This document shows, one piece after another, positions 6,145-35,951 of a stretch of 38,412 nucleotides of DNA. Both the position numbers and the translations under genes were made by a program. The DNA is taken from the NCBI GenBank assembly GCA_024280215.1, contig JAJRQO010000016.1:1-38412 (forward strand), read 5' to 3'. Within the stretch, counting starts at the first letter, position 1, and each line of letters opens with the position of its first letter. The notes below the pieces were generated by a model. That model was not told the DNA's origin. It worked only from the letters and a program-made list of their open reading frames with translations, and did not search any database. This DNA is from Candidatus Zixiibacteriota bacterium. GTDB taxonomy: Bacteria > Zixibacteria > MSB-5A5 > GN15 > FEB-12.

Positions 6145-7539
6145 CTACTTCTTTTTTGGTTGATGCACACACATTTTATGTACATCGTGTGCTGCTTCCA
6201 TCACAGATTCAGAAATCACAGGATGTCCAAAAATTATTGCCCCTAATTGCTTTGCAGTCAAACCTTGGTTGATGGCAACAACCGCAGAATGAATCACCTC
6301 AGTTGCATGCACTCCCACCACATGCACCCCTAACACTTTATCAGTCTTTTTATCAGCTATAACTTTGACTTCACCAGCAACTTCATTTTCCGCATGGGCT
6401 TTACCCAACGCACGAAGTGGAAATTTACCGATGACAAGCTGATGTTTCTCCGATGCGACCGCTTCAGTCATCCCAACAGATGCAACCTCAGGATGTGTAA
6501 ATATCACCGATGGAACCCCTAAGTAATTTTTCTTTACTTTTTCACCCATCGCATTGTCAACGGCAACAGTACCATCATGAGTTGCGGTATACGCCAGAAG
6601 AATCTCACCACGAACATCACCAATCGCAAATATATTTTTAATGTTCGTACGCATATCATCAGATGTCTTAATCGAACCATTTTGATTCATCTTCACACCA
6701 ACATCTTCAAGACCAATCTCCTCAGTATTAAATGAACGCCCAATAGAGACAAGCACTTGATTAACCTCGACAGTTTTACCACCTGAGATATGAGCCATCA
6801 CTCCATCTGATGACGGAACCAGTTTTTCTACTTTAGTCTTCGTATGTAATTTTATCTTCATTTTTTTAAGCTCACGCTCAAAAAGTTTAGATGAATCGAT
6901 ATCTTCCATCGGTAAAGCATGGTCAAGCATTTCAACCATTGTTACCTCGACATCTAACATTGATAACATCAATGCCCACTCACACCCAATAACACCAGCA
7001 CCGATTATGAGAATTGATTTTGGCAAATTTTCTAAGTTCAACAGATGATCAGAAGTCAATATCCGTTTCCCATCAATTGGAAATGCTGGAATCGATGCTG
7101 CCCGTGAGCCTGTTGCAATAATGATATTATCAGTCTTTAGTTTCGTCTCTTTGCCATCTTCATCTGTAACGGTCACTTCATTTTTACTCGTTATTTTTCC
7201 AGAACCAATAAGATGATCAACACCATGAGATTTAAACAGACCGCCAATACCACCAACAAGTCCATTCACTATTTTATCTTTTCGCTCAAGCATAACATTC
7301 CAGTCATACATCGGAGGAGTCGAAAGATTTATCCCAAATGACGCCGCATGTTTCATCTTGTTATATTGTTCCGCCGATGCGATAAGTGCTTTTGAAGGGA
7401 TACACCCTTTATTAAGACATACTCCACCCAATTTGTCCATCTCGACAACTGCTACTTTAGCACCTTTTAATGCCGCCCGAATCCCCGCTGTATAACCTCC
7501 AGGACCGCCACCTATGATAACTATATTATATTTAGCTAT
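6145..7539 (-). CDS. lpd: Dihydrolipoamide dehydrogenase (E3), apparent ATA start
   Basis: Flavoprotein that reoxidises dihydrolipoyl groups of 2-oxoacid dehydrogenase or glycine cleavage complexes, passing electrons to NAD. The FAD-binding GGGPGG is at residues 10-15 and the redox disulfide in GGVCLNKGCIPSKAL. The NAD-binding fold is at IIGAGVIGCEWA, and the C-terminal catalytic pair in GHPVISE (His, Glu). The first ATG in frame (7440) would cut off the FAD-binding fold. Thirty-three codons upstream in the same frame encode it intact, starting at ATA 7539 with AAGGAG six bases before it and a stop four codons above. From there the protein is 464 residues, the usual length. No ATG, GTG or TTG exists in that stretch, so the start is ATA (ATC 7542 is a poorer alternative) or the assembly has a base error. 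No E1 or E2 gene is nearby. A terminator follows. Confidence 0.92.
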   Translation of the reverse strand: MAKYNIVIIGGGPGGYTAGIRAALKGAKVAVVEMDKLGGVCLNKGCIPSKALIASAEQYNKMKHAASFGINLSTPPMYDWNVMLERKDKIVNGLVGGIGGLFKSHGVDHLIGSGKITSKNEVTVTDEDGKETKLKTDNIIIATGSRAASIPAFPIDGKRILTSDHLLNLENLPKSILIIGAGVIGCEWALMLSMLDVEVTMVEMLDHALPMEDIDSSKLFERELKKMKIKLHTKTKVEKLVPSSDGVMAHISGGKTVEVNQVLVSIGRSFNTEEIGLEDVGVKMNQNGSIKTSDDMRTNIKNIFAIGDVRGEILLAYTATHDGTVAVDNAMGEKVKKNYLGVPSVIFTHPEVASVGMTEAVASEKHQLVIGKFPLRALGKAHAENEVAGEVKVIADKKTDKVLGVHVVGVHATEVIHSAVVAINQGLTAKQLGAIIFGHPVISESVMEAAHDVHKMCVHQPKKK

Positions 7540-7694
7540 GATACACTCCTTTTAAACAAATTCAAATTTACGTTCTAATGTATACTTAAATACGAAATAT
7601 GGCAAGAAAATGATAAAAAAAACAGCTCAATATAAGGTCTATCTTACATAGTTTAAAAATAGCTAAAAACCTGCTAAAATCAGTAAAACAGCAC

Positions 7695-32701: not shown

Positions 32702-35302
32702 CTATTTGATAAATGATTGAGCCATCTCAAAGAGCTTCGATGGGTCAGTATCATTTTCAACAGAGCCTTGTGCAAAGTTTGGTTTACCACCACCTCGTCC
32801 TCCAAATTTTGAAAGAAGTTCCTTAGTGATTTTTCCAATATGAATTTGTTTATCTACTGCCGCCGATGATGCCGCAGCGATATATGTCATTTTTCCACCG
32901 ACAAGGCCTAAACCAATAGCAAAGACTGGTGTTGCCATCTCTTTTTTAGAATCTATCCATGCTGTCATAATATCTCGGTCGGTCTCATCAAAGTAATGCG
33001 TCGAAAATGTTATCTCACCAACAACCGTATCAGTCCCCACTGAGCTTCCGCCACCTGAGAACATATCGGCTTTAACTTTTTTAAGTTCTTTTTGCAATAA
33101 GATATTTTGTTCTTTTAATTGTTCAACACCAGCCAATGAATCTGCTTCAGGACGATTGACAATAGTAGCAACCTGTTTGCGGAATGACTTGGCATCCATC
33201 ATATATGAAAGAGCTTCAGTTCCTGTGATTGCTTCAATACGTCTAACACCTGAGGCGATACCAGTCTCGAGGGTGATAAAAAATGAACCGATTTGTGAAA
33301 TGTTTTCAACATGAGTTCCGCCGCAAAGTTCTTTAGAGAAGTCTCCGATAGTAACTACTCGTACATCGTTAGAGTATTTTTCACCAAAGAGTGCCATCGC
33401 ACCTGTTGCTTTCGCCTGTTCCAAATTCATTACTTCAGTTGCAACAGTAACAGATTTCAGAATTTCATTATTTACAATTGTTTCGACTTTTCGAATTTCA
33501 TCATCGGTCATTGGTTGATGATGTGAAAAGTCAAACCGCATTCTATCTGCTCCGACATAGGAACCCGACTGTTTAATATGCGGTCCTAAGACAGAACGTA
33601 ATGCAGCTTGAGTAAGATGAGTAACAGTATGGTTTCGTTGAATCGCCATACGTCGTTCAGCATTCACTTCAGTGCTAATTATAGTACCATCCTGCAGATT
33701 TGAGATATCACCTTTTTCGACAATACATTCATGCACAATCATACCTTTGTAGGCATGTAGATTTTTTACGGTGAGGGATACGTCGCTTGTATAAAGCGTT
33801 CCAATATCAGAAATTTGTCCGCCTGACTCAATATAGAACGGAGACTTATCTAAGATGACCGCTTCAATATTTTTATCATCACCAATTTGCAACACTTTCA
33901 AAATTTTTGATTCTGATGTATAACCGTCTCGTAAAAATTCAGTCGGAGGAAAGTCGAGATTTTCTTTATCTAAAATCGAATCTATCTTTTGGATAGCAGA
34001 ATCAAATTTACCACCTGCACGAGATTTTTCCTGTTGGTCAACCATCGCTTTGTCAAAGCCTTCTTTGTCAAGCGTCATTCCTTTTTCAGTTGCCATGATT
34101 TCAGTTAAATCATAAGGAAAACCATAAGTGTCATACAGTTTAAAGACTTCATCACCTGGGATAACTTTTGATTTTTGATCAGATGCAATCCGTTCAAAGA
34201 GTACCAACCCTTTGTCTAACGTTCTGTCAAAAGATTCTTCTTCCTGACGAACAACATTTGCAACATGCGATTCTTTTTCTCTAATTTCTGGATAGGCTTC
34301 GCCCATCTCATTGACAAGAGTCGGAATCAGTTTATGAATAAACGGTTCATCGGCACCAAGTAGACGTCCATGACGGACAGCACGACGTAAAATCCGTCTA
34401 AGGACATAGCCTTGACCTTCATTGGAGATTCCAGCACCATCGGTGATAGCAAATGTTAAGGCACGCAAATGGTCGGCGACCACATGAAACGATGGTTTCA
34501 AGTCACCTTCATATTTTGATTTTGTAATTTCGGAAATCGCTTCGATGAGATGTTGGAAGAGGTCGATGTTGTAATTTGTGTCACCACCTTGCATCAAAGC
34601 AGCGAGACGTTCAAGCCCAGCTCCCGTATCAACCGATGGGTTTGGCAGGTCAATGACTCCGTCAGGAGTTTGGTCGTACTGCATGAAGACAAGGTTCCAA
34701 ATTTCTACAAAACGGTCAGTCTCTCCATTAACAACATGTTCGCCACCAACTCCATATTTTTCGCCACGGTCAAAATGAATTTCGGAGCAAGGTCCACACG
34801 GACCAAGGTTTCCCATTGTCCAGTAGTTATCTTTTTTACCAAACCGAAGGATACGGCCATCTTTGAGTTCAGGAGCAATTTTGCCCCATAGTTCAAACGC
34901 TTCATCATCGGTTTCATACACTGACGCATATAATTTATCTTTAGGAAGTTTGAGCTCTTTGGTTATCCATTCCCATGCGTAGTATATTGCTTCTTCTTTG
35001 AAGTAATCACCAAAAGAAAAGTTACCAAGCATCTCAAAAAATGTATGGTGACGTGCGGTGAATCCGACATTATCTAAATCATTATGTTTCCCACCAGCAC
35101 GGATACACTTTTGTGCGGTAGTAGCTCGTTTGGTGTCGAGTTTCGTTTTGCCAGTGAAGACATCTTTGAACTGATTCATCCCAGCATTGGTAAACAAAAT
35201 TGTCGGGTCATCAAATGGAATTACTGGTGATGATGGCATCTCTTTATGACCATTCTTTTTGAAATAGTCTAAGAACGATCTTCGTATATCTTGAGTTTTA
35301 AT
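32702..35302 (-). CDS. alaS: Alanyl-tRNA synthetase, apparent ATT start
   Basis: Charges tRNA-Ala. Catalytic motifs: FTNAGMNQFKDVF and ARHHTFFEMLGNFSFGDYF. The editing domain has the zinc-binding HTVTHL and CGGTHV. The C-terminal C-Ala domain ends with GGRGGGKPNFAQG. The first in-frame ATG (35239) would remove the start of the catalytic domain. Twenty-one codons before it encode the family N-terminus, KTQDIRRSFLDYFKKNGHKE, beginning at ATT 35302, with an in-frame TAG two codons above and AGAGG upstream. ATT overlaps the recX stop as ATTAA, so translation is probably coupled. Full length is 866 residues. Either ATT is a genuine rare start, as in infC, or there is a base error. Confidence 0.95.
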   Translation of the reverse strand: MKTQDIRRSFLDYFKKNGHKEMPSSPVIPFDDPTILFTNAGMNQFKDVFTGKTKLDTKRATTAQKCIRAGGKHNDLDNVGFTARHHTFFEMLGNFSFGDYFKEEAIYYAWEWITKELKLPKDKLYASVYETDDEAFELWGKIAPELKDGRILRFGKKDNYWTMGNLGPCGPCSEIHFDRGEKYGVGGEHVVNGETDRFVEIWNLVFMQYDQTPDGVIDLPNPSVDTGAGLERLAALMQGGDTNYNIDLFQHLIEAISEITKSKYEGDLKPSFHVVADHLRALTFAITDGAGISNEGQGYVLRRILRRAVRHGRLLGADEPFIHKLIPTLVNEMGEAYPEIREKESHVANVVRQEEESFDRTLDKGLVLFERIASDQKSKVIPGDEVFKLYDTYGFPYDLTEIMATEKGMTLDKEGFDKAMVDQQEKSRAGGKFDSAIQKIDSILDKENLDFPPTEFLRDGYTSESKILKVLQIGDDKNIEAVILDKSPFYIESGGQISDIGTLYTSDVSLTVKNLHAYKGMIVHECIVEKGDISNLQDGTIISTEVNAERRMAIQRNHTVTHLTQAALRSVLGPHIKQSGSYVGADRMRFDFSHHQPMTDDEIRKVETIVNNEILKSVTVATEVMNLEQAKATGAMALFGEKYSNDVRVVTIGDFSKELCGGTHVENISQIGSFFITLETGIASGVRRIEAITGTEALSYMMDAKSFRKQVATIVNRPEADSLAGVEQLKEQNILLQKELKKVKADMFSGGGSSVGTDTVVGEITFSTHYFDETDRDIMTAWIDSKKEMATPVFAIGLGLVGGKMTYIAAASSAAVDKQIHIGKITKELLSKFGGRGGGKPNFAQGSVENDTDPSKLFEMAQSFIK

Positions 35303-35951
35303 TGTCTAATTCCTCTTGTTTCTTGTTGTACAACTCTTCAAATGCATCTTTTGCCTCGCCAAATGAAAACCCACGACGAGCAAGATAATTATACGACTTA
35401 TTACGAGCATCTTCAAGTGCTAATTGGTCATACATATGCCACTTTTTCTCAAGAGCGTCCATTGCAAGAGTTTGAATATCTGACGATTCAAAAACCAAAT
35501 TCGCAATACGGTCGCCTATATCTCGTGGAATCAGTTTAGTTTGTAAGTATGCCATCAAAAATGGTTTCCCACATGGTTTTCTGGCTACCAATTTTTCAGC
35601 AAGCTTATATGCATACTTCTCATCATCTATATAGCCAAGCTTTTGACATTTTGAAAGAGTTTGAGAGATTGTTTCATCAGGGAACCGTTTTTTCTGCAGT
35701 TTAATTTTCAGTTCGCCAGTCGAATGATCTCGCATTGCTAAATATTGCTTTGCTTTGTTAAACGTCTCATAGAGGGCTGCCTCAAACTCGATAATTTCAA
35801 ATTGCGATTCTGTCAACACGATTGACTCTACCAGTTGATGGGTAATGAGAAGTTCAATAGGGATATTATACACTTGTGAATTTGAAAGTGACAACTTTGC
35901 TTTGGTCTCAAACCGCTGAATAGAAATTATCTTTATCTGATTAGTACGCAT
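35298..35951 (-). CDS. recX: RecX regulatory protein
   Basis: A cytoplasmic modulator that caps RecA filaments. The 217-residue protein has an N-terminal extension of about 70 residues and then three RecX three-helix repeats: KAKQYLAMRDHSTGELKIKLQ..FPDETISQTLSKCQ, LGYIDDEKYAYKLAEKLVA, and the C-terminal RNKSYNYLARRGFSFGEAKDAFEEL. recA is not in this window; in many bacteria recX lies beside recA and alaS. It is the first gene of the minus-strand run, and its stop codon overlaps the ATT start of alaS. Confidence 0.85.
   Translation of the reverse strand: MRTNQIKIISIQRFETKAKLSLSNSQVYNIPIELLITHQLVESIVLTESQFEIIEFEAALYETFNKAKQYLAMRDHSTGELKIKLQKKRFPDETISQTLSKCQKLGYIDDEKYAYKLAEKLVARKPCGKPFLMAYLQTKLIPRDIGDRIANLVFESSDIQTLAMDALEKKWHMYDQLALEDARNKSYNYLARRGFSFGEAKDAFEELYNKKQEELDN

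Follow-up and report, generated by a model that had tools for sequence, protein, structure and literature searches.

The alaS locus

The window, by which we mean the whole stretch of 38,412 nucleotides that was analysed, belongs to a Candidatus Zixiibacteriota genome of 3.03 Mb in 42 contigs. On its minus strand it carries recX followed by alaS, the gene for alanine--tRNA ligase (AlaRS), and, elsewhere, lpd, the gene for dihydrolipoyl dehydrogenase. The features considered here are collected in Table 1.

Table 1. Features at the start of alaS and of lpd in the window.
Feature	Position	Strand	Basis
recX, gene upstream of alaS	35298..35951	-	RecX models, Pfam RecX_HTH1/HTH3
Shine-Dalgarno AAGAGG of alaS, within the 3' end of recX, 9 nt before ATT	35312..35317	-	Motif kept in AUH loci
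In-frame TAG, two codons above the alaS ATT	35306..35308	-	DNA read
ATT start codon of alaS (AUU in mRNA)	35300..35302	-	DNA read; homologous codon in relatives
ATTAA, 5-nt overlap of alaS start and recX stop (TAA, 35300-35298, T shared)	35298..35302	-	DNA read; same geometry in relatives
First in-frame ATG of alaS, codon 22	35237..35239	-	DNA read; position not kept in relatives
alaS, alanine--tRNA ligase, 866 aa counted from ATT	32702..35302	-	TIGR00344, PF01411, PF07973, PF02272
Shine-Dalgarno AAGGAG of lpd, 6 nt before ATA	7546..7551	-	DNA read; GGAG-type Shine-Dalgarno in most relatives
lpd, dihydrolipoyl dehydrogenase, start ATA 7539-7537	6145..7539	-	TIGR01350, 463 bits; DNA read

Codon 1 of AlaRS in the window is ATT (35302-35300, minus strand). 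Read in the alaS frame, the minus strand runs AAC AAG AGG AAT TAG ACA ATT AAA ACT CAA GAT ATA CGA AGA TCG TTC TTA GAC across this site. The protein read from the ATT matches TIGR00344 over its whole length (899 bits), and it is colinear with the solved AlaRS 9jc7 from residue 4 of both proteins onward, so that the ATT stands at the Met1 position of AlaRS. The in-frame TAG two codons above it excludes any start farther upstream in the window. Exactly 21 codons (35302-35240) separate the ATT from the first in-frame ATG, and a start at that ATG would remove the first conserved helix. The preliminary description of this DNA had reported the 21 AlaRS-like codons, the TAG above them and the overlap of the ATT with the recX TAA as ATTAA, and on rereading the DNA all of these statements are correct.

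Codon 1 of alaS in related genomes

The order to which the window genome belongs consists of mostly uncultured bacteria. The 80 genomes available for it, most of them fragmented drafts that are apparently metagenome-derived, fall into four families, coded f1 to f4. Codons AUU, AUC and AUA are abbreviated AUH below, and ATG, GTG and TTG are abbreviated NTG. For 59 alaS 5' ends from f1, f2 and f4, the codon was read at the AlaRS start position.

Codon 1 is AUH in 55 of these 59 loci, with ATT in 45, ATC in nine and ATA in one. Of the remaining four, one is unresolved (L124) and three have ATG (in G001, in G016 and in one of two copies in G066). All three ATG loci belong to f1, and their existence indicates that AUH is dispensable. 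The AlaRS N-terminus differs in f3, where the start is seemingly an upstream ATG. In 20 outgroup genomes, which represent 13 further families of the class, exactly this codon is ATG (18 genomes) or TTG (two). The control set comprised 80 distant bacterial AlaRS sequences (48% identity or less), in 78 of which an NTG stands no more than five codons from the site.

An ATG at this position in relatives had been named beforehand as an observation that would tell against an ATT start. Inside the order, however, AUH outnumbers ATG by 55 loci to three, and only beyond the clade that has AUH does ATG prevail. The ATT start first proposed from one genome is thus borne out by the same codon class in relatives of three families, as against ATG or TTG in every outgroup.

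In a protein tree from which residue 1 was left out, f3 is sister to f1+f2+f4. Taken with the ATG or TTG of the outgroups, this placement indicates that the AUH start is derived, and that it was gained once and kept. In the simplest history, ATG would have been replaced once at the base of f1+f2+f4, with three later, scattered reversions to ATG.

Two individual loci deserve comment. G066 holds two alaS copies (L319 and L320), of which the one adjacent to recX has ATT, is broken up and contains a run of N, while the second is full-length, has ATG and is located near pgk, followed by a pcrB-like gene; the pair may reflect either a duplication or a mixed assembly. The alaS of G003 (L002) has an in-frame TAA at codon 406, where the window has GAA, and this is probably a sequence error of that assembly.

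AUH starts of lpd and infC

The preliminary description had also placed a second near-cognate start on lpd and had likened the alaS ATT to the start of infC, the gene for initiation factor IF3. Both points are upheld by the related genomes. In the window, lpd begins with ATA behind AAGGAG, with a TAA just above the ATA. Across 30 lpd loci the start is ATA in 14 and ATC in 12, which amounts to 26 of the 27 readable loci of f1 and f2, and it is canonical in f3 and in five outgroups. As far as lpd is present, the AUH starts of lpd and alaS appear to share the same phylogenetic limits.

An AUH start on infC is already known in other bacteria. The infC of this order is itself uniform in this respect, with ATA in 28 and ATC in two of 30 loci, behind a Shine-Dalgarno sequence of the GGAGG type. 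In the window genome (L153, on G000:C40 at about 142,790; IF3 from 1495, plus strand), infC has ATA with AGGAGG five bases upstream.

The Shine-Dalgarno motif and the overlap with recX

The sole strong conservation upstream of alaS is the motif A-A-x-G-A-G-G, separated from the start by nine bases. Of the 55 AUH loci, 47 have GAGG (36 loci) or AAGG (11 loci) precisely at -13 to -10, so that a strong Shine-Dalgarno sequence is paired with a weak codon, as is typical of conserved AUH-start genes. The conservation is position-specific over 37 genera, and no corresponding motif was found upstream of alaS in the ATG outgroups. We found no RNA structure hiding the alaS start, the z-scores of 0.9 to 2.5 pointing towards less structure.

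The gene upstream is recX in nearly all f1, f2 and f4 loci. In most of them its stop overlaps or abuts the alaS start and the Shine-Dalgarno motif is inside recX, which is the arrangement of a termination-reinitiation pair. In 33 of the 54 AUH loci in which recX is visible, the final T of ATT doubles as the initial base of the recX stop (ATTAA or ATTAG, +5). Because stop codons begin with T, this overlap of exactly five nucleotides is impossible for an NTG start, and it is missing from the three ATG loci, of which one has a recX ending at -6, another has a recX ending at +4 (as ATGA) and the third lacks recX.

These overlaps favor an explanation in which AUU is a by-product of gene packing, retained because an ATG would destroy the recX stop, with the codon itself having no regulatory role. 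The other 21 AUH loci fit this poorly. Their recX ends elsewhere (-215 to +14, mostly -15 to +14), but they keep ATT (12), ATC (8) or ATA (1), and no upstream gene overlaps the AUH starts of lpd. We regard packing as an unlikely explanation of the AUH codon, though one with a real chance of being right.

The overlap does bear on which AUH codon is used. ATT accounts for 45 of the 55 AUH codons, where 17.5 would be expected from the Ile usage of the same genes, but the excess over ATC and ATA is partly forced, since the overlapping recX stop needs the T. We had considered the raw ATT excess as decisive evidence and dropped it once the recX stop was found to account for part of it. As to the earlier suggestion that the ATT couples AlaRS synthesis to recX translation, the geometry of the overlap and of the Shine-Dalgarno motif allows such coupling, but the 21 loci without the overlap mean that coupling is not the entire reason for AUH.

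Start selection across the genome

Two near-cognate starts in one window had raised the possibility that start selection is relaxed throughout the lineage, in which case alaS, lpd and infC would be random examples. We surveyed 1.64 Mb (54% of the genome), containing 1,211 gene-like open reading frames with an upstream stop. Apart from a few unconfirmed cases, a coding N-terminus ahead of any NTG was seen only in infC, lpd and alaS. Since genes with a chance upstream NTG escape this survey, the count is a minimum, which the true number may exceed perhaps twofold.

It had also been recommended that IF3 be inspected for changes in residues needed for start discrimination. We found no such change: the protein aligns along its length with solved E. 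coli-like and Thermus-like chains and keeps the DYGK..YE and FRGREMAH motifs, and by sequence it looks competent to discriminate starts. One initiator-type tRNA was found, and it is standard (CAU anticodon, GGG:CCC stem); the other tRNAs found include no odd initiator. A special initiator tRNA for AUH was also considered, and none was found among the tRNAs examined.

What speaks for relaxed selection is that at least three genes have a conserved AUH start and that there are genus-level candidates for more, namely a YeiH-like exporter and a permease. About three firm cases in 1,211 reading frames are few, however, and the same genes hold AUH over an order with no drift back to ATG. With so few candidates in the surveyed 54% of the genome and with an IF3 and initiator tRNA that look normal, we conclude that start selection is not generally relaxed; as an account of alaS the idea is disfavored, and we consider it very improbable.

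The two candidates differ in standing. For the YeiH-like membrane protein (L392/L393; G000:C42:117124-118131, minus strand, and G003), two species of the genus offer no NTG start, and the f3 relative has ATG at the corresponding site. It is possibly a further AUH-start gene, at genus level only. The permease (L273:16454-17515, minus strand) was rejected as a fourth AUH gene, relatives outside the genus having TTG, GTG or ATG at or near the site.

Other features of the genome were noted in passing. A DUF1573-like secreted protein (L380; G000:C34, about 76,412-77,149, plus strand) has an in-frame TGA in '...KVVPG*GCTKAP...', at a point where Cys might be expected, and a tRNA-Sec match above the gathering score occurs at G000:C40:40198-40290; the protein is possibly a selenoprotein. 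In L276 (G000:C36; 1370-3301, plus strand), a reading frame whose signal-peptide region contains a (TTTC)n tetranucleotide repeat looks like a phase-variable gene.

Other possible starts for alaS

We also considered that alaS might begin upstream of the AUH codon, at an NTG in some genomes and at the ACN preceding ATT in others, leaving the Ile internal. In 17 of the 55 AUH loci an NTG does occur within six codons upstream in an open frame, five of these being ATG two or three codons away, so that canonical initiation is possible in principle in those genomes, and codon -1 is often ACN in the relatives. Against this, 27 of the 55 loci, representing 19 genera and including the window, have no ATG, GTG or TTG anywhere from the upstream stop down to the site. 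The outgroups, moreover, have their Met (or TTG) at exactly the AUU codon, the stretch upstream is not conserved as protein, and ACN matches the CAU anticodon worse than AUU does. An upstream start is, in our estimation, slightly less credible still than relaxed selection. Downstream, the next NTG varies from codon +10 to +41 among the relatives and cannot be a common start. That the ATT is a sequencing or assembly error, as the mostly draft state of the assemblies and the stray in-frame TAA of L002 might lead one to suppose, is refuted by the agreement in codon class among 55 separate loci.

A proposed mechanism

Considering together the codon, its conservation and derived origin, the Shine-Dalgarno motif, the overlap with recX and the finding that infC and lpd also have AUH starts, we think it probable that alaS is translated from a near-cognate AUU, AUC or AUA codon, and that its translation is throttled at initiation, sensitive to IF3 and partly coupled to termination on recX. 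The ordinary fMet initiator tRNA would read the AUU by near-cognate pairing, with the A-A-x-G-A-G-G motif inside the end of recX, nine bases upstream, placing the ribosome on it. In the many genera that have it, AUUAA would let ribosomes finishing recX re-initiate on alaS. The Shine-Dalgarno sequence and the terminating ribosome would thus compensate for the weak codon.

Such a start suggests that AlaRS production is deliberately held back at the beginning of translation. We expect this restraint, and a response to IF3, because IF3 destabilizes initiation complexes on non-NUG codons; this action would keep AlaRS output low. If IF3 activity per 30S subunit were to fall, AlaRS would rise, together with the products of infC and lpd.

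Comparison with known near-cognate starts

Several characterized genes show parts of this arrangement. According to PMC13009471, S. aureus infC, cvfC1 and ccpN combine a weak start with a strong Shine-Dalgarno sequence, and effects have been measured for cvfC1 (AUU) and ccpN (AUA). The conserved AUH codon and strong Shine-Dalgarno of cvfC1 and ccpN (S. aureus/B. subtilis) resemble those of alaS, and their yield was measured as lower than that from AUG. Unlike alaS, an essential housekeeping enzyme gene, these are regulator or small-protein genes of the Firmicutes, and the passages of PMC13009471 that were consulted describe no stop/start overlap for them. E. coli pcnB shares the AUU with alaS, although in another gene and lineage, and there the codon limits expression (Binns and Masters 2002, as cited in PMC13009471).

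The infC genes of E. coli and Streptomyces, as cited in PMC5472188, share with alaS an AUH start, a strong Shine-Dalgarno sequence, a codon class that IF3 discriminates against and wide conservation. In that source infC is autoregulated, whereas the product of alaS is AlaRS, so any effect of IF3 would be in trans, and the alaS start overlaps an upstream stop. Streptomyces sigR has a non-canonical start conserved genus-wide and a strong Shine-Dalgarno, as alaS does, and its GTC start has been shown to be repressed by IF3; its codons are GTC or GTT, however, not AUH, and it controls a sigma:anti-sigma ratio (PMC5472188).

In gene pairs coupled through ATGA, as in recX-alaS, stop and start share bases on the same strand and the Shine-Dalgarno lies in the upstream gene (PMC2174442). 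The difference is that ATTAA is a five-nucleotide overlap, feasible only with a non-NTG start, and for overlaps of more than 4 bp the matching of start and stop has been treated as excluded (PMC2174442). An excess of IF3 inhibits re-initiation, and less so when a Shine-Dalgarno sequence is present (PMC2268962).

Implications

To our knowledge, bacteria offer very few documented non-NTG start codons. Such starts are not predicted by standard gene finders, so the class has probably been under-counted, and a wrongly annotated N-terminus is likely for alaS of this order. The open literature that we searched, which does not cover most subscription papers, describes no non-canonical start for alaS. 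Judged by its sequence, alaS would join the small known class of conserved AUH-start genes, as the first aminoacyl-tRNA synthetase that we have found there. The AUUAA overlap is also a stop-start geometry that is forbidden to standard start codons.

More tentatively, the ancestor of f1+f2+f4 may have placed alaS and lpd in a regulon governed by initiation fidelity, in which AlaRS, Lpd and IF3 would vary with free IF3, ribosome supply would set tRNA charging and central carbon flux, and AUUAA would add tight coupling to recX. We offer this as a possibility that we do not favor at present. With AUH starts that seem to share the same phylogenetic limits, alaS and lpd would provide a natural test of IF3 discrimination as a regulatory input beyond infC.
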